This document shows, one piece after another, positions 2,956 through 17,487 of a stretch of 64,000 nucleotides of DNA; within the stretch, counting starts at the first letter, position 1, and each line of letters starts with the position of its first letter. This stretch comes from Pirellulaceae bacterium (lineage in GTDB: Bacteria; Planctomycetota; Planctomycetia; Pirellulales; Pirellulaceae). The notes beneath the pieces were generated by a model. That model did no database searches. It had not been told where the DNA came from and saw only the letters and a list, made by a program, of their open reading frames with translations. The DNA is taken from assembly GCA_026004795.1 (NCBI GenBank), contig BPJV01000001.1, positions 372,001-436,000 of the forward strand. Direction: 5' to 3'. The translations under genes and the position numbers were made by a program.

Positions 2956-3243
2956 TCAAAGCACCTTTCGTGAAGGCAAACGCTGCTGCAATTCAGCGGC
3001 CATGGCTTCCAACGTGGCTTGGTCCTTCGTCATTAATTCTTCGTCCGGTGTCACCGGATCCCCCAGGACTTGCTGCAGAGCCTGAATCGTGCCGGCAAGT
3101 TTGCCTTCCGAACGCCCTTTCTGCAGCCCTTTCTGCATTCCTTTCTGCATTCCTTTCTGCATTCCTTCTTCCAGGCCTTCTCGGCGGGCGCCGGAGATGG
3201 CGAACTTGAAGTCGAGGATGGCTTTCTCCCGAGCGTCATACAT
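2956..3243 (-). pseudogene. Duplicated C-terminal fragment of the neighbouring Rpn-family nuclease
   Basis: This 95-codon frame repeats the last third of the adjacent gene (3295-4221). Both contain MYDAREKAILDFKFAISGA, the same GxQKG repeat tract and the LGDPVTPDEELM tail. It lacks the PD-(D/E)XK catalytic part, so it is a 5'-truncated tandem copy rather than a nuclease. It has one extra tetrapeptide unit (four xQKG units against three) and a different C-terminus. Whether it is translated, for instance as a regulatory C-terminal product, is unknown. It lies just downstream of the full gene on the same strand. Confidence 0.75.
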
Positions 3244-3591
3244 GTGCCTGTCCTCCGTCTTGGCCGTGGAGCGCGCAACTCTGAGCGGGTATTTTCATTC
3301 ACCGCGAGCTCGAATGCGCTGCTGCAACTCAGCGGCCATGGCTTCCAACGTGGCTGGGGCCTTCGCCATTAATTCTTCGTCCGGTGTCACCGGATCCCCC
3401 AGGACTTGCTGCAGAGCTTGAATCGTGCCAGCAAGTTTGCCTTCCGAACGCCCTTTCTGCAGCCCTTTCTGCAGCCCTTTCTGCATTCCTTCTTCCAGGC
3501 CTTCTCGGCGGGCGCCGGAGATGGCGAACTTGAAGTCGAGTATGGCTTTCTCTCGAGCGTCATACATGTGTCTGTCCTCCGTCTTGGCCGC
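2985..3591. repeat. Tandem duplication of about 280 bp at the 3' end of the Rpn gene, with internal 12-bp repeats
   Basis: Positions roughly 2985-3270 and 3318-3591 are near-identical direct copies. Inside each is a 12-bp microrepeat (CTGCATTCCTTT type): four units at 3121-3168 and three at 3457-3492. The copies differ in length by one 12-bp unit, which points to slippage or unequal crossing-over after the duplication. Confidence 0.85.
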
Positions 3592-4221: not shown

Positions 4222-4354
4222 GCCAACCTCCTCTCTCTTCGAATCTATTGCGCACCTTCGCAGCTACCATCGGCAACGTATGACATTGTAACGGGTGCAC
4301 AGTCCGTCGCCGGGGAAGCTTCTTCCTGATGCGTTTCTTTTGCTGCAGCGCCTT

Positions 4355-7240
4355 ATGCTAAAATGGCTGACCATAACGACGTGGCGAAGCAAACAGAGGC
4401 GGAGGGGATTCCAAGCATGCGAAACGGGTCGCGGGGGGATGTTCTTGTGGGTGGGGCTGATCGTGCTCGCTGCCTCGCAAGCTGTGGCGGCTGAGTTCTT
4501 TGTGGCATCCTCTGGCGATGACCGCAATCCTGGGACTCGGGACCAACCGGTCCGCTCCTTGAACCGCGCGGTGGCCTTGGCCCGCCAGTCGCCGGGGCCT
4601 GATCAGATCGAGATCGCCAGCGGAACACGGATTCAGCTCGATGCGACGTTACACCTCGATGAACGCGATTCGGGCTTAGCGATCATCTGTTCCGACGGCA
4701 CGGCCGTGCTCAGCGGCGGCGTCCAAGTCGAGGGATGGACTGCTCAACCGGATGGCACCTGGCGGGCAGCCTGCCCGGTCCCGAAAGCGCCGCGCGAATT
4801 GTACGTCAATGGTCGCCGCGCGCAGCGAGCCAGGTTTCCTAACCAGGGTTGGCTGCGCGTGCAGTCAAGTTTGCCCGATCGCCGTAGCGGTTTCACGTTC
4901 AATCCAGATGACATTCCGATGTCGATCGGTGCTGGTGAGGGATGCGAACTGGTTTTTCTCCATGACTGGTCGATTTCACGGATTCCTGTCGCAAAGATCG
5001 ACTGGGAGCATGCAACCTTGCGCACCATTTCACCGATCGGGTGTGCGGCTCCCCATTATGCGATCGATCATTTCGAACCACATCCGCGTTTCGCCCTGGA
5101 AGGCGCGATCAGTCTATTGGATCAGCCCGGCGAATGGGCCTTCGATGACGGATCGATCGTCTACATGCCACGGCCGGACGAGTCGCTCGAAAAGATCGCG
5201 GTCGTCGTGCCAGCGCTACCGCAATTGCTGACGATATCATCAGCAGATGGCCGGACGCGGCCAACGGATATTCGCATCGCGGGTTTGCGCTTCGAGCATT
5301 GTCGCTTCGATATCCCAACTGCTGGCTATGCATCGGGGCAAGCCACGATGTACGAACCGCGCGACGGCAGGTCAGGCGCCGGCCGAATCTTCATTCCCGC
5401 CGCAGTGCGAGTGGAAAACGCGGAACAGATCGAGTTTCATGAGTGCCGGTTCGCTCACCTGGGAGGCAGCGGCTTGTGGATCGGCGCGGGTTCCGAACGG
5501 TGCCGCATCGAGCGGTGCCATTTCACCGACATTTCAGGCAACGGAGTGAACATCGGTTCGCCCAGTACCGACAACGTGGCACGGGAAATCCACTTGGTGC
5601 ACAGCCGCGTGCACCAGTGTGGTCAACAGTTTTTTGGCAGTGTGGGAGTGTGGATCGGAATGGCGGCCGATTGCTCGATCGAGCAGTGCGATATCTCGGA
5701 TTTGCCCTACACGGGGATCTCCGTTGGCTGGCGGTGGAATCCATCCCCCAGTCCTTGTCGGGGCCATCGCGTGATAGGCAACGAAATACATCATGTGATG
5801 CAACTACTCTCCGACGGCGGGGGCATCTATACGCTCGGGCGTCAGCCGGGAACGCGGCTGGCCGCCAACCACATCCACGATGTGCCGCGCAACGCCGGGC
5901 GTGCCCAGAGCAACGGAGTGTTCATGGATGAAGGTAGTACGGGGATCGTAGTGGAAGAAAACGTGATCCATCGAATCGCCATGTCTCCCATCCGGTTCCA
6001 CAAGGCTGGTGCCAATCTCATTCGCCGAAACGTGCTCGGCCTCAGTCCCGCTGCCGCCGCCTTTACCTACAACGCTACCGATCCGCAGGTAATTCGATTC
6101 GAGAAAAACCGGGAGGTTGCCGAGGGTGCGACCGAGTTGGAGCAGGCGGTGGCGACTTGGAAGTCGAACCGACCGCACGTCGCGTCGCGGGCGGCGTTCA
6201 GTGACGAAGACATTTCCGTTTTGGTCTATCCGGCCGATGCGAAACATCCGCGGTACACCGAGGGATCGATCGTCGAATTGGAGGATGGCAGCCTCTTGTT
6301 CGCCATCACCGAATTCGAAGGCGGCGGCACGGATTTTTCGCGCGCACGGATCGTTGGACGTCGATCGACCGATGGTGGCCGCAGTTGGAGCGAGCCCGAG
6401 GCTTTGCAAGAGAACACGGGGCAGCAGAACGTGATGAGCGTCACCCTGCGGCGGATCGACCGCGACGACGGCACGAGCGAGCTGGCCATGTTCTACCTCG
6501 AAAAAAACGGCTTCGACGACCTCCGAATGTTCTTGCGATTCTCCTCGGATCAGGGCCGTTCGTTCGGGCCGCCCGTGCTGGTCACTCCGGATCCAGGATA
6601 TCACGTCGTCAATAACGATCGCGTCACCATCCTCTCCTCGGGGCGTTGGATCGTCCCGGCAGCTTCCACGCGCGACGTGCGGCAGGAAAATCACTTCGTA
6701 TCCCGTTGTTATATCTCCGACGATCGAGGACGCAGTTGGCGGCCGGGCCGCGGCGTCGTCGACGCTCCGCGGCGAGGCGCGATGGAACCGGATGTCGTCG
6801 AACTTCGCGACGGCCGGCTGCTGATGATCATCCGCACCCAACTCGGGTATATCGGCCGGAGTTATTCGACCGACGGAGGGGACACGTGGAGTCCCATGGA
6901 AACGATGGGCGTCCGATCTCCTGAAGCTCCCGCTACGATCCGTCGCATTCCCGCAACAGGTGATCTGCTGTTGATCTGGAACGACATCTACACGCCTGGG
7001 GCCGATCATGGTGGCCGCCGGACACCCCTGGTCGCTGCCGTATCGAGCGACGACGGGCAATCGTGGCACGTCGTCGGTGAACTGGAATCCGATCCCGCCC
7101 GCACCTTCTCTTATCCCAGCCTCACCTTTGTTGGCGCTCGCGTCCTCCTTTCCTATTGGGAATCCGATCCTCAGACCGGATGGCTATCCACTCGCTTCCG
7201 TTCCCTGCCCCTCGCCTGGTTCTATCGCCACGAACGGTAG
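4355..7240 (+). CDS. Secreted right-handed parallel beta-helix protein fused to a sialidase (BNR/Asp-box) domain
   Basis: A large exported protein of about 961 aa. After an n-region rich in Arg/Lys comes the signal core FLWVGLIVLAASQAVAA. The N-terminal part (AEFFVASSGDDRNPGTRDQPVRSL, then many short GN-I repeats such as RCHFTDISGNGVNIGS) is a parallel beta-helix of the polysaccharide lyase/GH141-like type. The C-terminal third has Asp-boxes (STDGGRSWSEP, SSDQGRSFGPP, STDGGDTWSP, SSDDGQSWHV), indicating a six-bladed sialidase-fold propeller. It likely binds and cleaves complex, perhaps sialylated, glycans outside the cytoplasm. Starts at 4295 (GTG) or 4439 (ATG) are also possible; 4355 keeps the positively charged n-region. 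The 3' half lies in a 1.7-kb repeat copied at 15792. Confidence 0.8.
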   Translation: MLKWLTITTWRSKQRRRGFQACETGRGGMFLWVGLIVLAASQAVAAEFFVASSGDDRNPGTRDQPVRSLNRAVALARQSPGPDQIEIASGTRIQLDATLHLDERDSGLAIICSDGTAVLSGGVQVEGWTAQPDGTWRAACPVPKAPRELYVNGRRAQRARFPNQGWLRVQSSLPDRRSGFTFNPDDIPMSIGAGEGCELVFLHDWSISRIPVAKIDWEHATLRTISPIGCAAPHYAIDHFEPHPRFALEGAISLLDQPGEWAFDDGSIVYMPRPDESLEKIAVVVPALPQLLTISSADGRTRPTDIRIAGLRFEHCRFDIPTAGYASGQATMYEPRDGRSGAGRIFIPAAVRVENAEQIEFHECRFAHLGGSGLWIGAGSERCRIERCHFTDISGNGVNIGSPSTDNVAREIHLVHSRVHQCGQQFFGSVGVWIGMAADCSIEQCDISDLPYTGISVGWRWNPSPSPCRGHRVIGNEIHHVMQLLSDGGGIYTLGRQPGTRLAANHIHDVPRNAGRAQSNGVFMDEGSTGIVVEENVIHRIAMSPIRFHKAGANLIRRNVLGLSPAAAAFTYNATDPQVIRFEKNREVAEGATELEQAVATWKSNRPHVASRAAFSDEDISVLVYPADAKHPRYTEGSIVELEDGSLLFAITEFEGGGTDFSRARIVGRRSTDGGRSWSEPEALQENTGQQNVMSVTLRRIDRDDGTSELAMFYLEKNGFDDLRMFLRFSSDQGRSFGPPVLVTPDPGYHVVNNDRVTILSSGRWIVPAASTRDVRQENHFVSRCYISDDRGRSWRPGRGVVDAPRRGAMEPDVVELRDGRLLMIIRTQLGYIGRSYSTDGGDTWSPMETMGVRSPEAPATIRRIPATGDLLLIWNDIYTPGADHGGRRTPLVAAVSSDDGQSWHVVGELESDPARTFSYPSLTFVGARVLLSYWESDPQTGWLSTRFRSLPLAWFYRHER

Positions 7241-8063
7241 CAGAACTGGTCAAGCCTACGGTTTCCAAGCTGTCTTGGCGACTTGGCTAAGAGTTTCGTG
7301 TACATCAGGATCCGCCAACACAATTCGACGCGGAAGCCCGAATCGAACAAGCGTATCGCTTTATTAAACAGATTCCCTGAATCGGGGCGCAGCCGATCGA
7401 CTCGCCCCGTGGATGCGTCGCCGAACCCGGAGGTGCTACTGAAAACCGTGGCGTCGTCCCCAACGTCGACGTGCGATGCTCATTCGACTCGTGGTCCCCA
7501 ACGTCGGGCCACTGGTCACGCTCGCATCCGACAAAGCGACTGGCATCTATCCAGGACAGTCGCCAGCGGCATCGGGCTGACCAACGCGTGGCTTGGCGAA
7601 CAAGGACGGATCCGCATGAAGACTTTATAGTCCGGACTTGCTCCTCTTCGCGGAACCGCCTGATGCGGCCCCGCATGTCAGGCGGTGTGAGGAGGGCCAT
7701 CCGCAAGAATAGAGGTGATTCGCAATTCTTGGACCATTGGCGAGCGAGAATAGGATAGAGGTCAAGCCTGCGGTCGCTCGCTGCCGGAGGTTTATTCGCT
7801 GGTGGGCAGCCGCTAGGCCACGCCTCGGCATCCACGCGGTAGACGTGACTGAGCTGCCGGATCACCTACTCCGTCTCTTCGGGGAACACGTCGACCAGGC
7901 CCACGAAGTTCCGCCGCGCGTGGGCCAGACAGTGGGCCACGATCGTCCGTAGCTCATCGGACGTGTTCCGCGACAGTGCATCGCCCCTCTGGATCGGTCT
8001 CGCCAGTTCTTCCCCACCGCCAGCACGTTCATGAATACCAGCACGATGCGCCAGTAAGTGAAC
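6368..8063 (+). repeat. Left copy of a 1,696-bp direct repeat
   Basis: This segment matches 15792-17487 at a constant offset of 9,424 bp with no indels and only scattered substitutions. It includes the last 873 bp of the sialidase-fusion gene, an intergenic stretch and an IS66 transposase relic. The boundaries are sharp: homology begins at ACCGATGGTGG and ends at CCAGTAAGTGAAC. Confidence 0.95.
7241..7865. other. Non-coding/degenerate stretch downstream of the sialidase
   Basis: No intact gene is recognisable. The distal part on the minus strand still reads VIRQLSHVYRVDAEA in frame after a TAG, which continues the IS66 transposase relic described next. The remainder is decayed. The same sequence recurs at 16665-17289. 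Confidence 0.6.
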
Positions 8064-8066
8064 CAA
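7866..8066 (-). pseudogene. IS66 transposase (TnpC) fragment, left copy
   Basis: The minus-strand frame reads RGDALSRNTSDELRTIVAHC then LAHARRNFVGLVDVFPEE. This matches the conserved IS66 transposase segment CDALSRN...ILANCLAHARRxFVDVAExFPxE. An in-frame TAG follows at once, after which the same frame continues with VYRVDAEA, as expected for IS66. The N-terminal region is in another frame and the DDE catalytic region is gone. It is a dead remnant. Confidence 0.75.
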
Positions 8067-8493
8067 CTATTCTTGGCGGACCAGTTTACTGAGCGTGGCC
8101 AGGTCGGGCGGTGTGCTTCCCTTCCAACGCAGAGTCAGCTTGGTGCCGCTGCCGTTTTCGAATTCCAATTCGCATTCCGCTTGGGGACTAATGTTCGTTA
8201 CCGGCGCCAGCTCCACAAATGCCCCGGCACCGCCACGACGACATTTCTTCGGAGCGTCAGCAGCCTTACTCGGTGCCCCACCACGGCTGTCCATCCGTCT
8301 TTGCAGGGTATAGTAATCGAGCTTTAGCGCCCCGGCGGTCTTCGCGACGCCATGCTTGCGAGCGACCTGACCCGCCCAATCCCACAGTTTATCTGGAATC
8401 CGGCCGGTGTCCCGACTTCGCAGCCCTCCACTGCCTGAACGCCTCCCCAGCCTGCTCGAAAAGACTATCGTTAGTTTCAGCGAGTGGTTCCAT
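8067..8493 (-). pseudogene. IS66 accessory protein TnpA-like gene, broken by a frameshift
   Basis: The ATG at 8493 has a good AAGGAGC site and encodes MEPLAETNDSLFEQAGEAF followed by RQWRAAKSGH, then stops within a few codons. A second frame continues with GRIPDKLWDWAGQVARKHGV and LKLDYYTLQRRM to a TAG at 8067. Together they give the usual TnpA layout: an FRQWR helix, an IP-x-x-LW HTH, a LDY-x-x-L helix and an FVEL...LATLS C-terminal domain. One frameshift, located around 8391-8430, separates the halves. It sits directly upstream of the TnpC relic in the same orientation; TnpB is missing. The break could also be a sequencing error. Confidence 0.7.
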
Positions 8494-8674
8494 CGAACGC
8501 AGCTCCTTTCGGCTAGAGGATCAAACACACCTCCACCTTACCTGTCCCACCAAGAAACTCTCACACACGTTTAGTGCAAACTCACGATTCTTTCGCATCG
8601 CCAGCCTCCCAGAGTCCTCTCCAAAAAGCCGACCATCCACGCCCCACCCCTTCTCTCAACCAGGCATCCAATTG

Positions 8675-10006
8675 TTACCCTTCACTCACGCTCTTCAAAA
8701 CCGCCATCCCGTGAAGGATGAGAATGCACTTGATGCCAATCAGCGGTGCGGCGTAGCGGTCGCCGTAGCTGATTAGGACATAGGGAAAGAGATGCAGGAA
8801 ATATATGAAAACTGCAGAAGTGAACTGCCGGTCGTGCGCCTTGCGGAGCAATAAAACGATTGCCACGGATAAGATTGTCCACGGAAACACGCACCTTTTA
8901 ATCATCAACCACCACTCGCGATACGGTGGCTCGTCATAATAGGAATAGTACCAAAGGAACGCCGCCAAAAACCGGTTCCCGACACGACGAGCATAACCGA
9001 GCTTGTCGCGGAGCACACATCTCCAGGCTTCTTGCTGTTTCCTTCTTAGGAACTCTGGTTCTCCCAGTTGCAAATAGAGCTCGCGCTGCTCACGACCTGA
9101 GCTGACGAACGGATGTTTCCTTGTCAATGATTGATTCAAGACTCCGTCGTCATCGAGGCACTGGCTTTGCCATAGTTCGAACGGCGCATTGGACTTAATC
9201 GGAATCAAGCGACCGAACAACCGGTAGTTACGAATGGTCCAGGGAGTCACGACAAGGATCGAACACAAGCCAGCCAACACGACTCGGAGCAAGGCCGAGT
9301 CACCAGTTGCCGATCTTTCACTGACCTTGCCGCTCGATCTTGAATTCGATTGCATGTAGCGTCCGAGGCGCGCCCTGACTGGCGCCAGAACGCCAGAAAA
9401 AACTACCGTCGCCAAGGCCCAATTCAAGCCGATCACAGGACTGCAAAGCGCGGCCATTCCGCCGAAGACACCCCAGGCAACTGATCGCCACAGACTCGTC
9501 GGCCGCCAAAAGTAATTCAGCCCCAGCCACATTAAATCTACACACAGCAGATTCAGCCATAAATCGTGCGTGATCTGAAATAAATCGCGAAAATTGGCCA
9601 ACATCGCTACCGGAATCATCAAACGGCCGATCCATAACAAACCAAGGCGTCGAGACTCGGAAAGTACCATTATCCCGGTGAGCACGATCACGAGTGCCTT
9701 CAGGGCGAGGACGAACTCGATCACGCTGGGGGGATGGTAATCGGTCAACCAATACAATCCCGCCAGAATGTACGGAAGCGCCGGTGGCATCCACGCCGTC
9801 GGGCCCGATTCGACGCGAAAAGGGTCAGCAAAACCACGCCCTTTAAAGATCGCCTTGGCTATCTCGTTGTATTCCGCTCCCAAGTGCCAGTTGATCGTCT
9901 CCGGCAAGACTTCGCGCGGGAAGTCGTTCCGCGCGGCCTGTTCGGCTACCCACGTGCCGAACATTGTCCAGCCCAATACGTAGGCGGCGTCAATCACATA
10001 CCTCAT
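8675..10006 (-). CDS. Polytopic membrane protein, GT39/ArnT-like glycosyltransferase family
   Basis: A 443-aa integral membrane protein with about nine or ten hydrophobic helices. An extracytoplasmic loop after TM1 (LGAEYNEIAKAIFKGRGFADPF) matches the acidic/D-E-Y-x-x-x-A motif region of lipid-linked sugar transferases. After it come PPALPYILAGLYWL, VVTPWTIRNYRLFG and the C-terminal YGDRYAAPLIG motif. Such proteins transfer sugars from polyprenyl-phosphate donors at the membrane. The start at 10006 leads directly into TM1. It is divergent from the cluster beginning at 10422 and lies inside the repeat-flanked cassette. Donor and acceptor are unknown. Confidence 0.7.
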   Translation of the reverse strand: MRYVIDAAYVLGWTMFGTWVAEQAARNDFPREVLPETINWHLGAEYNEIAKAIFKGRGFADPFRVESGPTAWMPPALPYILAGLYWLTDYHPPSVIEFVLALKALVIVLTGIMVLSESRRLGLLWIGRLMIPVAMLANFRDLFQITHDLWLNLLCVDLMWLGLNYFWRPTSLWRSVAWGVFGGMAALCSPVIGLNWALATVVFSGVLAPVRARLGRYMQSNSRSSGKVSERSATGDSALLRVVLAGLCSILVVTPWTIRNYRLFGRLIPIKSNAPFELWQSQCLDDDGVLNQSLTRKHPFVSSGREQRELYLQLGEPEFLRRKQQEAWRCVLRDKLGYARRVGNRFLAAFLWYYSYYDEPPYREWWLMIKRCVFPWTILSVAIVLLLRKAHDRQFTSAVFIYFLHLFPYVLISYGDRYAAPLIGIKCILILHGMAVLKSVSEG

Positions 10007-10421
10007 TCTCGCGTCTACCTACATTCTGTTCGCGTTGCCGATAAAGGATCGACTGTTGCCGCAGGCAACTGCGTTGTAAATGGAGGCGCCATCATGACTC
10101 GATTGGTTTACCTGGCGATTTCACTCGGCATTGAAGTTGGATATTGCGCCATGGCTACGAGCGCAATTCACTTCCCAGTCGTTCCCACAAGATAACAGCG
10201 CCGAGTCCGTCCTGGTGGCAGTCCGCAGACTCGGTAGCATCGAAAGACTCTCGACGGCCCTCGAGATTACCATACCAACGCAGGCCGGTCGGGGGTAATA
10301 CATCAGAAAAAGCACGATCACACAATTCACGCCAACCCGAACACCATTGTAGGTGCTCGACGTAGGAAACCATTACCTACTACTGAAATGGCGAGGTCTT
10401 ATCTACTTTTCACGTCAGGGG
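10007..10421. other. Intergenic region upstream of the Cys-rich peptide cluster
   Basis: A divergent control region between the membrane glycosyltransferase and the cluster. It holds one weak candidate, a 33-codon ORF at 10094-10195 (+) preceded by GGAGG. I see no homology or conserved motif in it and do not call it a gene. Confidence 0.4.
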
Positions 10422-10450
10422 GTTGACGAGACTCGGCAGTGCGTTATAAT
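10422..10450 (+). promoter_or_regulatory. Consensus sigma-70-type promoter of the cluster
   Basis: TTGACG at 10422-10427 and TATAAT at 10445-10450 are separated by exactly 17 bp. This near-perfect housekeeping promoter is the strongest in the window. It directs transcription rightward into 10561 and beyond. Confidence 0.8.
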
Positions 10451-10560
10451 CTCCGAGAGAGAAGGTACTGAAGGTAAGGAACCAAGTTAGTTCGGCTAAC
10501 AGAGTGTTTCTCGCCTAGTAACCTGGATCGGCAGGTGAGTCTTTTCGGGAGGGTGAGGCT
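10451..10560 (+). promoter_or_regulatory. 5' leader of the cluster transcript
   Basis: About 100 nt separate the -10 box from the first ATG. A small hairpin (GTTAG-TTCGG-CTAAC, 10486-10500) with a UUCG-like loop is visible. A GGGAGGGTGAGG purine tract just before the ATG at 10561 serves as a strong ribosome binding site. Confidence 0.5.
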
Positions 10561-11198
10561 ATGCGAATGCAAGGCCTCTTGACAAGAGCGTTCCTGGCAG
10601 GTGCCGTAAGCCAGTGGTTCTGTTCCGCTCTCTCTCTCTCTCTCTCTCTCTCTTGTTGTTCGTTCCGGCGTCTAGCTCAATCTTGCGGTGGTGTCTCGGG
10701 GGGATCGCGCCCCCGTCTCGCATTGTTCATCGTAACTGGCTCGCCACGATCTCGGCCGATAAGAATGGTGTGGCGCCCTCAAGTCGTCCGTCTGTGTCAA
10801 TGGAAACACCAAGAGTTGTTCCTCCTGTTCACCCGACGGTGCGGTTTCGCAAACTTGCCGCACTGATGAATAATGGTGAGGCCGAAGGCGTGGCGACACA
10901 GAAAATGGGTGCAGTGTTACAACTGAGTCACTCGTTACTGTTTTTCAGCGCAGCGACGTGCAAAGAAACGTTACGCGACGCCATGGCTTACTTGCATGAT
11001 TTGTCAAGCTGCGGTTGGCAATGGGCTCAGCAGGTCAGTATAAGGCTGCGTCGATTGCAGTTGTCGGACCGCAGGGTGGCTGCGCCGTGCTCCGATGCCT
11101 CGTCGCTCAGGCGGGGAGGAAACGATGTGTTGGGTCGACTTCTTCCGAGTATTTACCGCGCTGCGTGTTGCGTGGTTCTGTTCCTTTCGTGTCTGTGA
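10561..11198 (+). CDS. Putative phase-variable first gene of the cluster, out of frame as sequenced
   Basis: The ATG at 10561 follows a strong ribosome binding site and the consensus promoter. The N-terminus (MRMQGLLTRAFLAGAVSQW) then enters a (CT)13 tract encoding Ser-Leu repeats. As sequenced, the frame ends at 10866 after 101 codons. Losing one CT unit, or gaining two, would join it to a second frame open through 11198 and give about 211 residues, ending 13 nt before the next gene. This is the design of a contingency gene. I recognise no domain in either frame, and an assembly or sequencing slip in the repeat is possible, so coding status is uncertain. Confidence 0.35.
10628..10653 (+). 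repeat. (CT)13 dinucleotide microsatellite
   Basis: Thirteen perfect CT units lie inside the first reading frame of the cluster, 67 nt after its ATG. A tract of this length is prone to replication slippage and changes the reading frame by 2 nt per unit. Confidence 0.95.
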
Positions 11199-11211
11199 AG
11201 GAGGAAATTGA

Positions 11212-11550
11212 ATGAACGCTACAGCTTATCAGCGAGAATCTTCGTTCCTGGCGCTGAGTGTGATCGCAGCAGCGGTCATGTTTAGCGCACCAGCGAATGT
11301 GAACCGGCAGGTGGTCGGAGGTCAGCCCTGCACGGTGCAGGACGAGTTGTTGTCCAAGAACTGTCCCGTTGCGCCAGGTCGTACGGCCTGCAGTCGGTAT
11401 AGGAATAAGTGCAACAGCGCTACCGGAACTAAAACGAAGCTGTGTAACGAGAATGCGGGCGGCGGCAATTGCAGTGACGGCAACCCAAATTGCGGTGAGT
11501 TCTTTCATGATGAACTCTCTAGCACTGCCTGCGAAGAAAACTACAGCTAG
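11212..11550 (+). CDS. Small Cys-rich secreted peptide with a Gly-Gly motif
   Basis: A 112-aa protein preceded by a textbook AGGAGG 7 nt before its ATG. Residues 12-26 (FLALSVIAAAVMFSA) form a hydrophobic export signal. A double glycine follows at 36-37 (NRQVVGG), and the remaining 75 residues carry eight Cys (C40 onward; QPC, KNC, TAC, NKC, KLC, GNC, PNC, TAC) among Asn, Gly and Lys. That pattern suggests a disulfide-rich exported peptide. A C39-type (Gly-Gly leader) protease-like protein is encoded two genes downstream, with redox proteins beside it. Whether the GG is a processing site is inference. No family is recognised. Confidence 0.7.
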   Translation: MNATAYQRESSFLALSVIAAAVMFSAPANVNRQVVGGQPCTVQDELLSKNCPVAPGRTACSRYRNKCNSATGTKTKLCNENAGGGNCSDGNPNCGEFFHDELSSTACEENYS

Positions 11551-11640
11551 GAACGCAACAGTTAGTTAATGCCGGCACGCAGTCGCGGGCTACCAGGGTC
11601 GGAAAGCAGGCTTTGGTGCGTGCGTTGGATGTTTGTAAAT

Positions 11641-11674
11641 GAGGGGTGGAATCCACGCGGTTCGACCCCTCTTT
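11641..11674 (+). terminator. Hairpin after the Cys-rich peptide gene (terminator or attenuator)
   Basis: GAGGGGTGGAA (11641-11651) pairs with TTCGACCCCTC (11661-11671) around a 9-nt loop, with one mismatch, followed by only three T. The stem is strong but the U-tract short, so partial termination is likely. The peptide gene would then be expressed in excess over the genes from 11893. Confidence 0.55.
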
Positions 11675-11892
11675 GGGAATGATCCGTTACTAAGATTGTT
11701 ACGGGCTTATCGCTTTTTCCTCTCGCTTTCCTCTAATTATTTCTTGCGGAATATAGCGTTTTTTTGCTTGCTGTGTGTTTTTGAATAAAAGCTTTCATTT
11801 CTTTGTTTCTTCCCCGGAACCTCCTCTGTGTTCGCGCTAATGCGTAACGTCCAAATAGGCTAGGTGTGCGTGTTTCATTGCTGAAGTGTATT
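11675..11892. other. AT-rich spacer before 11893
   Basis: A T-rich stretch (runs of TTT around 11711-11800), unlike the GC-rich surroundings. No gene is visible. It could hold a second promoter for the membrane-protein genes, but I see no convincing -35/-10 pair. Confidence 0.4.
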
Positions 11893-13113
11893 ATGTCGTC
11901 TCGAATATTGCATGCATGGTCAACCCCAGGCGCCTGCATCGTTGTGCTTGCGTTTTTTTCCACGGCAGGAGTTAACGCGAATCAGACCGTCAACGAGGAA
12001 ACCTGTAGGAAAGAATTAATTCGTTTGTCAGAGGCGCTGGACGGGCGCGTGATTGACCTGAAAGAGCACGAGATTCGCCGGAAGAGTTCTGAATTCAATT
12101 CTCGTCCGGGATGGCAATCACTCGAGCGCCTGTCTCCGCCGCCTGGCGATGCTTGGTCGGCAATTACGTCCGTAACATGGAATGGGGAATTGAGCTGGGA
12201 GGTCAGAGATATTAGACGAGGAGCCGTCAATGAGAACCCGGAGGAAGGGGGCGGTAGAGACGAGACCATAACTTCATTGGTTCCGTTCCCGGGAATCCCA
12301 GTGCGCAATGCATTTTGGTTTACCGTAGGCTGCGGCTCAGTTCGCAATGCAAATGAGTGTAGTGGTTTTGTCGAAGACAAGAATTTCGCTTCGCTTGGTA
12401 TCAAGGCGATCCACGGCGCTGCAGGGGTGTTTGTGGGGATGCTGAATGGTTTTCGAAAAGGGGCGCGAAATTCTTTTCGATCCTGGGCACAAAATCCAAC
12501 GTTAACGTCACGGCGGTCGCCCTCTGGCGGTATCGAACTGAGTTTGAAAGATCCGATTGATGGAAATGTGCAGATAGTGTTCGACGTCGGTGTGGCTGGC
12601 CCTCGTCTTCGCGAGGTGCGGATGTCGGGGGGCGTGGATGCTGGTTCTGCGATTGGCAACTATCCATTTGGAATCGAATATCAGAATAGATATAGATACG
12701 ACTATGACGAATCGCGATCTCAGGGCTGGGGTCTCGGCGTGTTTCCGGTTTCTGTTCAGACACTCTCTTTGGTTCGCTATAAGTCCGAGGGAAGGTTTAC
12801 AGGATATTTTATGGCCCATGATACGACAATCCTTGCAATCAGCGAGCGGATTCCGAGGCCGAATAATCTGGAAGAGCTGTTAAATCGCTTTGATGTGGCG
12901 TGGCCCGATGGTATGAGCGTCACCATCGCCTCACACGAGGGCATCGACTTCGAGTGGCGCGATGGTGCGATTGTTCGGCGGATTGATCGCAAACGGCTTG
13001 ATTCGATCTCGGGGTTTCGGTTGAGCAACGCCCGGTGGACGATTCCGGTGCTCGGACTCTTCGTGCTCACGTGCGTGGCAGCGTTCTTGTATTGGCGGAG
13101 GAAGTTCAAATGA
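11893..13113 (+). CDS. Exported type-I membrane protein of unknown function
   Basis: About 406 aa. A signal peptide (ACIVVLAFFSTAGVNA) is followed by a long extracytoplasmic domain. It starts with a helical stretch around QTVNEETCRKEL, then a beta-rich body with paired Cys at VGCGSVRNANECSG and the Arg/Tyr run YQNRYRYDYDESRSQGWGLG. It ends with one membrane helix (IPVLGLFVLTCVAAFLYW) and a basic RRKFK tail. It looks like an anchored extracytoplasmic partner protein. The next gene starts within its stop (ATGA), so the two are translationally coupled. An alternative GTG start lies at 11866; the ATG gives the better signal peptide. No family is recognised. Confidence 0.7.
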   Translation: MSSRILHAWSTPGACIVVLAFFSTAGVNANQTVNEETCRKELIRLSEALDGRVIDLKEHEIRRKSSEFNSRPGWQSLERLSPPPGDAWSAITSVTWNGELSWEVRDIRRGAVNENPEEGGGRDETITSLVPFPGIPVRNAFWFTVGCGSVRNANECSGFVEDKNFASLGIKAIHGAAGVFVGMLNGFRKGARNSFRSWAQNPTLTSRRSPSGGIELSLKDPIDGNVQIVFDVGVAGPRLREVRMSGGVDAGSAIGNYPFGIEYQNRYRYDYDESRSQGWGLGVFPVSVQTLSLVRYKSEGRFTGYFMAHDTTILAISERIPRPNNLEELLNRFDVAWPDGMSVTIASHEGIDFEWRDGAIVRRIDRKRLDSISGFRLSNARWTIPVLGLFVLTCVAAFLYWRRKFK

Positions 13114-14252
13114 GGCGATGTCACCTGGGCGATGTGTGCGCTTTGCTAGCCATCGTTACCTTGGGACTGGCGGCCATTTCCGGGATGAGAGCGACGCGCG
13201 CTTCGGAGCCGTACTGCGGTGTATATTCTGTCTACATTGCCGCGGACGTCTTGGAGCATCCGATAGAGTTCGAGTCACTATTGTCTAACGAGTATGTACT
13301 CGGTTGGGAGGGAAGCAGTATTAATGCCCTGACCGAGGCTGTAGAAGATCATGGGCTGGTCGCATGCAAAATTGGGGCTTTGTCGTATTGGGACCTGCGT
13401 CTGGCTTCGTTTCCAGTAATCCTTCATGTGCGATCGGACATCTCACTGCCGCGCTTCGATCACTGGGTGGTGTATTTGGGTGAAAAAGCCGGAAGGGCTC
13501 GTATTCTGGATCCGTCCCATGGGGAGCAGGTGATTGACTATGCACACTTATTGGCTCTCTGGGATGGCGCAGGGCTAGCCGTTAGTGACTCTTCAGGTAA
13601 GGTCGTAGCATGGCGAGTATTGGGCATTCTCTGGCGTCTAATGGTGATCGCAGTAGTAGCCGTCTTGTGTTGCGGCCACGTCAAGATTATGGCCACACTC
13701 TGGCAATCTCAGCGTAGTGGCTCGCATCGATCTCGAGTCCCAGCCTCGTGCGTAGTCGGCAGCCTGACGATGCTGATGGTGACTGCGGTGTTCTTGGATG
13801 GGGTTTTTGGTCCCCGGATTTGGCGCCAGAGCTACGTGACTCAAAGCATCGCTACAATGATCTTGCCACGACAGTTTCCCAGAATCGGTACCGAAGAGTT
13901 GCGGCAAGCGCTCTTTGGAAATGATGGCTCCGAATTGGTCTTGGTTGACGCTCGACTGGCAAGAGATTACGAGTATCGTCAACTGCCTCGCGCGATCAGC
14001 GTGCCGGTCGACGCCGCGCCAAATCAGGAGGAACAAGCGTTGGCGAACATTTCGCGTGATGCTCCAGTCGTAGTCTATTGTCAGTCATCGGAATGTACCT
14101 TCAGTGATGTTGTGGCACAGAGGTTGTACGCGCGCGGATTTAAAGACATTCGCATTTATCGCGAGGGAGTAGTCGGTTGGTTCGGTAGGCCTGCTCAATC
14201 GGGGCCGTCGAAGAATCGGACGTCGGGAAACGGTGGGGAGGACGAAGGATGA
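13110..14252 (+). CDS. Membrane protein with N-terminal C39-like papain-fold peptidase and C-terminal rhodanese domain
   Basis: A 380-aa protein. TM1 or a signal anchor (residues 8-25) leads into a C39-type domain with C36 (YCGVYSVYIAADVL), H118 (FDHWVVYLG) and D134 (RILDPSHG), in the order and spacing of the C39 catalytic triad. Two membrane helices follow (about 172-195 and 215-235). The C-terminus is a rhodanese domain (LVLVDARLARDYEYRQLPRA...VVVYC) with loop CQSSECTFS (C324, C329). C39 domains usually remove Gly-Gly leaders; rhodaneses move sulfane sulfur or act in thiol redox. It is ATGA-coupled to both neighbours. I infer a role in maturing Cys-containing exported proteins of this cluster. 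Confidence 0.75.
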   Translation: MRRCHLGDVCALLAIVTLGLAAISGMRATRASEPYCGVYSVYIAADVLEHPIEFESLLSNEYVLGWEGSSINALTEAVEDHGLVACKIGALSYWDLRLASFPVILHVRSDISLPRFDHWVVYLGEKAGRARILDPSHGEQVIDYAHLLALWDGAGLAVSDSSGKVVAWRVLGILWRLMVIAVVAVLCCGHVKIMATLWQSQRSGSHRSRVPASCVVGSLTMLMVTAVFLDGVFGPRIWRQSYVTQSIATMILPRQFPRIGTEELRQALFGNDGSELVLVDARLARDYEYRQLPRAISVPVDAAPNQEEQALANISRDAPVVVYCQSSECTFSDVVAQRLYARGFKDIRIYREGVVGWFGRPAQSGPSKNRTSGNGGEDEG

Positions 14253-14764
14253 AACGTGCGTTGGCTAGGACTCGACTGCGAATTGGCAGCGGTATGGCTA
14301 TGGCCTGTGTGCTCTTCATCGGCGGCACGTTCGCAGTAAGCGGATTAGGACATATCACCAATCCAGTTCGGTTGTTCGAGCACATTTTGCGATACGACCT
14401 GCTCCCCTATTGGGTCGCTGTCTTTGCCGCCACCGTGCTACCATGGCTGGAACTCGGGCTGGCCGTACTGCTGCTGCTTGGACTGAGTCGTCCGGTGGCG
14501 TTCGCCTGCAGTGCTTTGTTGTCCACCGGTTTCGTGGTGGCACAGAGCTGGGCGCTATGGCGTGGGCTCGAAATCGACTGCGGATGTTTCGGGGCGCTGC
14601 TACAGCGGTCAGTGGGCGCCGAGTCTTTGAGTCTAGCGGTCGCCGTTTTGGTGGCATCCGTGATAGGCATGTCACTAACGACAGGCAGTGAGCCGTCATT
14701 GAAATCAAATCTCACTGGCAAGGCTGCATGTGAGACGCCGGGAAGGCGGTTGGTGGTACAATAG
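14249..14764 (+). CDS. MauE/DoxX-family redox-associated membrane protein
   Basis: A 171-aa protein with four predicted membrane helices ([37 protein letters not shown], then two more). It has the family motif IDCGCFG with C111 and C113 at a helix end. MauE-type proteins supply thiol/disulfide redox power across the membrane, as in methylamine dehydrogenase maturation, and are often paired with thioredoxin-like or rhodanese partners. It begins inside the stop codon of the rhodanese gene (ATGA). Together they form a plausible electron or sulfur relay for disulfide formation in the exported products. No MauA/B/D genes are present, so methylamine oxidation is not implied. Confidence 0.8.
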
Positions 14765-14840
14765 GGTTCGTGGTACTGTAGAGTTGGGAAAAGTTGTTCT
14801 TCACGATGCGAGATCGACCTGGATTGGCCTGGAGATTCCG

Positions 14841-15791
14841 ATGTTTACTGAACCGGTATTTCACCTAGCACTTCCCACTGGCATCGTTCAGTTGGGAATT
14901 GCCGGCCCACACGGCGGGCGACGATCGACTCGCTACGGTTTTACCCTGATTGAGTTGTTGGTAGTGATCGCCATCGTGGGTGTGTTAAGTTCGCTGCTGT
15001 TGGCAGGCGTTCAAGCGGCGCGGGAAGCGGCCCGGAGGGTACAGTGTCAGAACAATCTGCGTCAGGTCGGGATGGCATTGCAAAACCATGTCTCCACGCA
15101 CGGCGTCTTCCCGTCGAATGGCGGTTACGATGGCAAGAGCACAGTCGTTTCGAAGCAAGGTATTCCGGTAGTCGTGTCGACTTATGACAACAAGCTGAAG
15201 CAACTGTTCAAATGGGGTATCGGCGCGCCGGGAATTCGGCCGAAGGATCAACCAGGAAGTTGGGCTTATTCCATTCTCCCGTTCTTGGAACAGCACCACG
15301 CGTACGAACAGCTTGATTTTCGTGTAATCCAACCTGTGTTCCTGTGTCCGACACGGTCGCGCCCCGTTCCCTTGCCGACCGTGGACGATGCTTACGGACG
15401 GTACGAATCAGGCGGCTGGGGATGGGCAAAGACCGATTACGCCGCCAATTTGCTGATGATTCGAAATCGTCCCCAAGTTTTAGGTCCGGGAGCAATCACT
15501 GATGGATTATCCAACACGATTGCGGCTGGAGAGAAAGCTTACGACCGCGTTATCCACACGGCCACAACGTGGTACTGGGATGAGCCGATATTTACTGGAG
15601 GATCGCAAGGAACTTCCCGCGACGGTGGTTTGTTGGTACCGGATGGAGATCGGTACGAGTTCAAGGCTAATTGGGGCTCGCCCCACTCCGGTGTTCACTT
15701 CGTACGGGCCGATGGGTCGGTCCATTTGGAGAGCTTTCAAATTGACTGGCGCGTGTTCGACGGGTTGCGCACTCCGCAAGGGGGAGAGTGA
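14841..15791 (+). CDS. DUF1559 pseudopilin (prepilin-type N-terminal methylation signal)
   Basis: A 316-aa protein of the abundant planctomycete DUF1559 family (SBP_bac_10/H-X9-DG type). A leader ends at the prepilin cleavage site [17 protein letters not shown], followed by [20 protein letters not shown] and the family blocks [13 protein letters not shown] and [17 protein letters not shown]. The C-terminus has [11 protein letters not shown] (H-X9-DG-like). A type IV prepilin peptidase encoded elsewhere would process it. The start is the ATG at 14841 with GGAG 9 nt upstream. A GTG at 14730 would add 37 residues. The stop codon abuts the right 1.7-kb repeat, so a few C-terminal residues may have been lost. 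Likely the main structural product of the cluster. Confidence 0.85.
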
Positions 15792-16664
15792 ACCGATGGT
15801 GGCCGCAGTTGGAGCGAGCCCGAGGTCTTGCAAGAGAACACGGGGCAGCAGAACGTGATGAGCGTCACCCTGCGGCGGATCGACCGCGACGACGGCACGA
15901 GCGAGCTGGCCATGTTCTACCTCGAAAAAAACGGCTTCGACGACCTCCGAATGTTCTTGCGATTCTCCTCGGATCAGGGCCGTTCGTTCGGGCCGCCCGT
16001 GCTGGTCACTCCGGATCCAGGATATCACGTCGTCAATAACGATCGCGTCACCATCCTCTCCTCGGGGCGGTGGATCGTCCCGGCAGCTTCCACGCGCGAC
16101 GTGCGGCAGGAAAATCACTTCGTATCCCGTTGTTATATCTCCGACGATCGAGGACGCAGTTGGCGGCCGGGCCGCGGCGTCGTCGACGCTCCGCGGCGAG
16201 GCGCGATGGAACCGGATGTCGTCGAACTTCGCGACGGCCGGCTGCTGATGATCATCCGCACCCAACTCGGGTATATCGGCCGGAGTTATTCGACCGACGG
16301 AGGGGACACGTGGAGTCCCATGGAAACGATGGGCGTCCGATCTCCTGAAGCTCCCGCTACGATCCGTCGCATTCCCGCAACAGGTGATCTGCTGTTGATC
16401 TGGAACGACATCTACACGCCTGGGGCCGATCATGGTGGCCGCCGGACACCCCTGGTCGCTGCCGTATCGAGCGACGACGGGCAATCGTGGCACGTCGTCG
16501 GTGAACTGGAATCCGATCCCGCCCGCACCTTCTCTTATCCCAGCCTCACCTTTGTTGGCGCTCGCGTCCTCCTTTCCTATTGGGAATCCGATCCTCAGAC
16601 CGGATGGCTATCCACTCGCTTCCGTTCCCTGCCCCTCGCCTGGTTCTATCGCCACGAACGGTAG
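15792..16664 (+). pseudogene. 5'-truncated sialidase-domain fragment (duplicate of 6368-7240)
   Basis: The reading frame is the same as in the full-length gene and ends at the same stop (PLAWFYRHER). It keeps three of the four Asp-boxes but lacks the signal peptide, the beta-helix and the first box. The frame is intact, so duplication is recent. A start around 15828 would give a 278-aa cytosolic fragment with no obvious use. Confidence 0.85.
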
Positions 16665-17487
16665 CAGAACCCGTCAAGCCTACGTTTTCCAAGCTGTCTT
16701 GGCGTCTTGGCTAAGAGTTTCGTGTACATCAGGATCCGCCAACACAATTCGACGCGGAAGCCCGAATCGAACAAGCGTATCGCTTTATTAAACAGATTCC
16801 CTGAATCGCGGCGCAGCCGATCGACTCGCCCCGTGGATGCGTCACCGAACCCGGAGGTGCTACTGAAAACCGTGGCGTCGCCCCCAAAGTCGACGTGCGA
16901 TGCTCATTCGACTCGTGGTCCCCGATGTCGGGCCACTGGTCACGCTCGCATCCGACAAAGCGACTGGCATCTATCCAGGACAGTCGCTAGCGGCATCGGG
17001 CTGACCAACGCGTGGCTTGCCGAACAAGGACGGATCCGCATGAAGACTTTATCGTCCGGACTTGCTCCTCTTCGCGGAACCGCCTGATGCGGCCCCGCAT
17101 GTCAGGCGGTGTGAGGAGGGTCATCCGCAAGAATAGAGGTGATTCGCAATTCTTGGACCATTGGCGAGCGAGAATAGGATAGAGGTCAAGCCTGCGGTCG
17201 CTCGCTGCCGGAGGTTTATTCGCTGGTGGGCAGCCGCTAGGCCACGCCTCGGCATCCACGCGAAAGACGTGACGGAGCTGCCTCAGCACCTACTCCGTCT
17301 CTTCGGGGAACACCTCGACCAGGTCCACGAAGTTCCGCCGCGGGTGGGCCAGACAGTGGGCCACGATCGTCCGTAGCTCATCGGACATGTTCCGCGACAG
17401 TGCATCGCCCCTCTGGATCGGTCTCGCCAATTCTTCCCCACCGCCAGCACGTTCATGAATACCAGCACGATGCGCCAGTAAGTGAAC
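15792..17487 (+). repeat. Right copy of the 1,696-bp direct repeat
   Basis: A near-identical copy of 6368-8063. It starts one base after the DUF1559 stop codon and ends in the IS66 relic. It carries a 5'-truncated sialidase and the same degenerate downstream sequence. Confidence 0.95.

Follow-up and report, generated by a model that had tools for sequence, protein, structure and literature searches.

The window, that is, the whole 64,000-nucleotide stretch of Pirellulaceae DNA analysed here, carries on its forward strand a gene cassette around an intact open reading frame (13110-14252) for a 380-residue protein in which a C39 peptidase domain is joined through two membrane helices to a rhodanese domain. 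Ahead of this fusion gene are genes for a small secreted Cys-rich protein of 112 amino acids (11212-11550), a candidate propeptide, and for a secreted protein of ~400 amino acids with a single C-terminal membrane helix and no known family (11866-13113), weakly similar proteins occupying the same place in relatives. The small protein has a hydrophobic helix at about residues 12-24, the sequence VVGG at residues 34-37 and then eight cysteines; its predicted cleavage motif, G36-G37 with V34 as P4, is encoded at 11317-11322 and was assigned from the sequence and the motif statistics given below. The fusion gene is followed, again on the forward strand, by a gene for a MauE family membrane protein with a DCGCFG motif (14249-14764; PF07291, E 6.3e-22, CGC motif present) and by one for a DUF1559 prepilin-like protein (14841-15791), which ends the cassette and, judged by eye, is found in some of the relatives only.

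Two copies (98.3% identity) of a direct repeat of 1,696 bp, the left at 6368-8063 and the right at 15792-17487, form the exact borders of a ~7.7-kb block (8064-15791) in which the cassette lies; the right copy begins directly behind the last base of the DUF1559 stop codon. GC content per 1-kb bin is 0.522-0.575 in the eight bins that cover 8000-15999 and 0.589-0.614 in the six surrounding bins. Because direct repeats flank an interval of lower GC, the arrangement fits acquisition of the cassette as a block, with a single crossover as one mechanism that might have produced it. The left repeat copy takes in the end of a gene for a BNR/beta-helix protein (4295-7240), of which only the 3' part is kept in the right copy. 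The block also holds, on the reverse strand (8675-10006), a gene for a 443-residue multi-helix membrane protein with no Pfam match at E 0.01, and large multi-helix membrane proteins lie alongside other cassettes too. Elsewhere in the window, a short direct repeat (2981-3266 and 3317-3590) has 92.7% identity over 286 columns.

Pfam-A searches with the fusion protein return Peptidase_C39 (PF03412) over residues 32-161 (13203-13592), at E 4.6e-8 and 33.4 bits against a cut-off of 22, and Rhodanese (PF00581) over residues 272-357, at E 2.1e-12 and above the curated cut-off; the rhodanese domain as a whole spans residues 253-362 (13866-14195). These are the only families matched up to E 1, and ABC transmembrane and ATPase domains are absent. 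In an alignment of 28 sequences, comprising the window fusion and 27 relatives, the C39 profile is matched at E ≤0.01 by 26 and the rhodanese profile by all 28. The peptidase residue C36 (13215-13217) is Cys in all 26 aligned rows that have the position, H118 (13461-13463) is conserved in 28/28 and D134 (13509-13511) is Asp in 26/28. The rhodanese loop, CQSSEC in the window, has the C-x4-C form in 27/28 sequences, with Cys in 27/28 at C324 (14079-14081) and in 28/28 at C329 (14094-14096). An AlphaFold2 model built from the window protein and its 27 natural relatives has a mean pLDDT of 83.4, rising above 90 over most of both domains. Residues 32-161 of the model superpose (VIA-align) on the ComA peptidase 3k8u (Z 16.9, 124 residues, rmsd 1.9) and on the LahT peptidase-leader complex 6mpz (Z 16.7), while the rhodanese part superposes on 3o3w (Z 15.6, 105 residues, rmsd 2.5) and on GlpE 1gmx (Z 13.6). 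A preliminary description of this DNA had proposed a C39-type peptidase joined through membrane helices to a rhodanese, with C36, H118 and D134 placed as catalytic residues and C324 and C329 in the rhodanese loop, and had named profile searches and structure prediction as checks; both profiles proved significant, both folds were matched and all five residues are conserved as counted above. Full-length relatives recur at 22-34% identity, so the fusion is more than a chance open reading frame.

The membrane region corresponds to model helices 162-203 and 212-233 (13593-13808), and the stretch between the helices, at about residues 189-212, contains many Lys, Arg and His. Because this stretch is basic, peptidase and rhodanese are both predicted to face the outer side of the membrane, which agrees with the same-side topology proposed earlier. 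The N-terminal helix and the helix layout of the model are likewise consistent with an extracytoplasmic C39 domain, at what is a predicted location. C39 domains are leader-cutting peptidases best known as parts of export pumps. The earlier remark that they normally belong to ABC exporters, and that none is present here, stands as far as the fusion has no ABC ATPase, but C39 proteins free of ABC domains are known from FapD (PMC5557850) and NapP (PMC11798529), and all seven C39 matches in the window's own genome lie in open frames of 221-416 amino acids.

A feature that bears on activity is the Gln six residues before the catalytic Cys, at the oxyanion position, which is present in 1/26 members and missing from the window fusion; within the same genome, L116 and L121, two further C39 proteins, retain it. 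In LahT this Gln lies 4.3 Å from the oxyanion, the His may substitute for it and its catalytic need has been questioned (PMC6363468). Peptidase activity of the Gln-less domain is thus a prediction that we hold as uncertain, yet possible, since the His may take over as suggested for LahT. The absence of the Gln in 25/26 members, together with the occurrence of the C39-like domain 3zua among the fold matches, would also suit a domain that has ceased to cut and, in the manner of the C39-like domain in HlyB, binds double-glycine leaders and keeps the precursor at the membrane. A pure binding domain would have no need of the conserved Cys, His and Asp, however, and the members without the catalytic Cys are confined to one genome, making this the least probable of the alternatives we consider. 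The Cys-less members (L103 and L104, at 5.77 and 5.69 Mb) are near-copies of the fusion that have large upstream proteins beside them in place of a precursor with the Gly-[Gly/Ala/Ser] motif (G[GAS]), a co-occurrence that we count in favour of a cutting peptidase that matures such precursors.

C39-rhodanese fusions form a planctomycete family that is patchy in its distribution and recurs in the same kind of cassette. Counting the window's own genome, matches were found in 22/396 genomes of the order (E ≤1e-12), 24/241 of the family (E ≤1e-35) and 16/392 of the phylum (E ≤1e-20), the genome draws for order, family, phylum and genus overlapping. Among the 16 phylum genomes, seven have a full-length match, one has the two near-copies without the catalytic Cys and eight have the rhodanese part with little or no C39. 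The pattern is patchy even within the genus, where two of 14 other genomes match, one of them in full length. In a search that used a less divergent subset of the alignment, relatives were found on 14 named contigs, of which 13 bear the title Planctomycetaceae, Planctomycetia or Planctomycetota; the remaining one (L097), titled Nitrospira, is possibly mis-binned. The relatives are not independent of each other, L098/L105, L161/L162, L119/L120 and L103/L104 being near copies.

Neighbourhoods read by eye reveal a recurrent gene order of small Cys-rich secreted protein, ~400-residue secreted or transmembrane protein, C39-rhodanese fusion and MauE, followed in some cassettes by a gene for either a DUF1559 prepilin-like protein or a large membrane protein with multiple helices. 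The small and ~400-residue proteins are placed downstream instead in L047, L048, L098 and L105. A MauE-like open reading frame with a CGC motif adjoins the peptidase gene in 38/40 loci, the search having been extended to 4.2 kb downstream for L047 and L048; the two misses are L049, with an apparently broken frame, and L045, whose C39 gene is truncated ahead of the rhodanese. The same neighbour is present in 15 of the 17 loci examined later (misses L163 and L165).

The ~400-residue partner is less sharply defined. Its members have 11-21% identity to the window protein in alignment, and since identity is this low the 'family' rests on place, size, the C-terminal helix and a thin profile. No recurring Pfam family was found among them (one of 27 members matched Ta0938), the model of the protein has a pLDDT of 60 and Foldseek returned no match at E ≤0.001; with neither a confident fold nor a Foldseek match, the idea of a LolA-like protein is unsupported. 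Its connection to the peptidase is clearest in L055, where one open reading frame of 726 amino acids combines a member of the family with a C39-rhodanese and the N-terminal part matches the family profile at 5.2e-21 (E values here being for six sequences). Two more fused frames, L159 (709 amino acids) and L164 (706 amino acids), have N-terminal parts that match weakly (5.8e-6) and without significance (0.082), respectively. The profile check is therefore clear for L055 only, and we do not treat all three as fusions of this family. No hydrophobic stretch was seen in the sequence at the junction between the front part and the C39 domain of L159 and L164, hence the two parts should share a compartment.

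The candidate substrates are the small proteins, which have a hydrophobic N-terminus, a linker and then 6-10 cysteines; in the window protein the residues around the predicted cut read NRQVVGG/QPC. The double-glycine motif takes the form Gly-Gly, Gly-Ala or Gly-Ser, and in LahT the leader residue Val-4 sits in a hydrophobic groove (PMC6363468). We found G[GAS] within the nine residues that precede the first Cys after the helix in 23/25 small proteins from 22 loci, as compared with a mean of 6.4 and a maximum of 14 of 25 in shuffled controls (5000 rounds, cysteines set aside) and with 21/152 later cysteines of the same proteins. The 25 were curated by hand as Cys-rich frames with a hydrophobic N-terminus in cassettes, and the nine-residue limit was picked afterwards. 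An automatic precursor filter missed some of these curated frames (L048, L050 and L099) and passed others, in L051, L061, L015 and L103, that were excluded by hand as unrelated. Because the discovery set was curated and the nine-residue limit chosen post hoc, 17 further loci were examined under a rule fixed beforehand, and G[GAS] was present in 13/14 upstream small frames. The raw count is 13/19 same-strand frames, the five set aside, none with the motif, being four internal-start pieces of MauE and one frame judged spurious (L158, at -2677); the opposite-strand control (2/5) is too small to weigh. Under the nine-residue rule the motif is missing from L014 and L016 in the discovery set and from L165 in the new one.

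Further properties of the small proteins point the same way. Of the 23 that bear the motif, 19 have V, A, I, L or F at P4, in line with the hydrophobic Val-4 of the LahT-bound leader. In five tandem precursors from two related genomes the leader has a mean identity of 74% and the core 47%, as expected for a leader read by a shared enzyme. The small proteins thus have, at the level of sequence, the RiPP-like pattern of leader, core and cleavage motif, the conservation of the leader being drawn from the five tandem copies. By the rules used, no small precursor was found at L056, L015, L043 and L100 despite adequate flanks, and that at L064 is doubtful; among the 17 new loci no upstream small frame was found at L160 (where the flank is short), L162 and L172, and at several other loci the flanks are too short to judge.

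We examined 16 loci that match in the rhodanese part only, chosen by likeness to the fusion family, two of which resemble ArsR-type regulator-rhodanese proteins. The CxxxxC loop is present in 14 of them, so that, contrary to the view that it is special to the fusion, it is not unique to proteins with a C39 domain. A MauE-like CGC frame lies near the rhodanese gene in 4/16 (L075, L076, L078 and L079), with no C39 domain within the 2.5-3.5 kb examined, and these are possibly independent redox pairs. As the pair occurs in these four stretches without C39, rhodanese and MauE look like a thiol module that existed beforehand and became linked to the peptidase. It has been speculated that disulfides in methylamine dehydrogenase are formed by MauE, and homologues of mauE have been reported in candidate RiPP clusters with precursors of at least eight cysteines (PMC7794033). 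Sequence alone does not separate redox chemistry from sulfur transfer by the rhodanese. A true sulfurtransferase that, with MauE as its partner for electrons or sulfur, places sulfane sulfur onto peptide cysteines or supplies persulfide would be consistent with the significant Rhodanese match, the fold and the conservation of the loop residue C324 in 27/28 sequences; we nevertheless consider it unlikely, since the second loop Cys, conserved in 28/28, suits a dithiol/disulfide pair and no further sulfur-metabolism gene was noticed among the neighbouring frames of relatives read by eye.

The genome of the window offers a comparison with C39 proteins of a different make. Besides the fusion, its seven C39 matches include four short membrane-anchored proteins without rhodanese, L117-L120 (contigs C1 at ~986 kb, C10 at ~94 kb, C12 at ~6.5 kb and C2 at ~726 kb), of which the C12 and C2 copies are near-identical. 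All four keep the catalytic Cys. No MauE-like CGC[FYW] motif was found in the 8 kb around them, and one CGCL occurs in L119 within a 43-residue frame. Cys-rich proteins with GG before the first Cys lie beside three of the four (L117, L118 and L119, the last as a 214-residue frame), which argues that the double-glycine part of the system is more general than the rhodanese part and that rhodanese and MauE are dispensable for some such peptides. These loci may represent the system in a simpler form, in which disulfides may form without the rhodanese-MauE pair. The same neighbours could be taken to mean that the pair tracks the type of peptidase and not the cysteines of the peptide, and, with the rhodanese covalently fused to the peptidase and MauE a frequent neighbour, that the pair serves the enzyme by keeping C36 reduced, or by switching it, outside the membrane, as in a redox-gated leader peptidase. 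We regard this as unlikely, because the membrane C39 proteins of this genome that lack rhodanese keep their Cys with no such partner nearby and because, in the stretches examined, the four loci described above have rhodanese and MauE together without C39.

Built on the observed domains and folds, conservation at the catalytic positions, the recurrent set of genes, the motif statistics and the one clear fusion, our main reading is that the genes of the cassette produce a small, secreted, disulfide-rich peptide and carry out its maturation with no ABC exporter involved; we assign this reading a probability of about 0.57. The hydrophobic N-terminus of the small Cys-rich precursor (11212-11550) would direct it through the membrane along the Sec route. 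Anchored in the membrane and facing outwards, the C39 domain would then cut after Gly-Gly (Gly-Ala or Gly-Ser in relatives) before the first Cys and free the core. The CxxxxC loop of the rhodanese and the CGC motif of MauE could form a thiol relay, which would most likely oxidise the core cysteines to disulfides, the direction of the redox reaction being presumed. The ~400-residue protein (11866-13113) may serve as a holder or chaperone beside the peptidase, and the released peptide may be bacteriocin-like, a signal or a surface protein.

Parts of such a system are known already, in the form of periplasmic C39 peptidases such as FapD and of MauE beside Cys-rich RiPP candidates. FapD is a C39 homologue with a Sec signal peptide that acts in the periplasm in secretion of the Pseudomonas Fap amyloid, and its C38A mutant does not support FapC secretion (PMC5557850). 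Like the fusion it is a C39 protein without ABC domains, but the available part of that source describes it without a rhodanese, and its substrates are amyloid, with an unsettled target and without canonical C39 sites, whereas the candidate substrates here have clear G[GAS] sites (PMC5557850). The AMS/PCAT exporters LahT, ComA and PCAT1 share with the fusion system the C39 fold, the Cys-His-Asp residues, the GG/GA/GS motif, a hydrophobic -4 residue and a conserved leader with a variable core (PMC6363468; 3k8u, 6mpz). The fusion differs from them in having no ABC domains and no oxyanion Gln, in its attached rhodanese and in a peptidase predicted to be outside rather than cytoplasmic. In Streptomyces, candidate RiPP clusters likewise place MauE, as a proposed modifier, beside precursors with at least eight cysteines; one family of them also has MauD, and the accessible portion of the report does not mention a C39-rhodanese fusion (PMC7794033). 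By analogy with these clusters, the fused rhodanese could here take the role of thiol partner. NapP, from the nap island of Neisseria, resembles the cassette as a potential C39 peptidase with small GG peptides, in an island that has a FapF-like outer-membrane channel; those peptides are cationic and microcin-like, and a redox partner is not mentioned in the text available (PMC11798529). A survey of papain-like families places PF03412 in fusions to ABC transporters and the related PF13529 in single-domain proteins (PMC10318531). Among the matches listed from the open-licence PMC literature, outside which most subscription papers lie, we found no description of a C39-rhodanese fusion or of comparable GG peptides from planctomycetes. 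Proteins of the NVEALA and C39-VKOR types in Bacteroidota, considered as possible analogues, did not turn up in the literature search and are not used as evidence.

More broadly, these loci may represent a planctomycete class of secreted, variable, disulfide-rich peptides that are matured outside the membrane by a Gln-less, membrane-anchored C39 peptidase with a covalently attached rhodanese and MauE as partner, double-glycine processing having moved from ABC export to the Sec route and the system having spread on mobile cassettes; we put this forward tentatively, at somewhat less than an even chance. If it is true, removal of double-glycine leaders would not be tied to ABC export and would run outside the membrane, coupled to thiol chemistry in one protein. 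FapD-like peptidases, whose target was left unsettled in the Fap report (PMC5557850), would gain a relative with a directly testable substrate and site. The Planctomycetes, for their part, would gain a family of secreted Cys-rich peptides that can be searched for and whose cut site is predicted.
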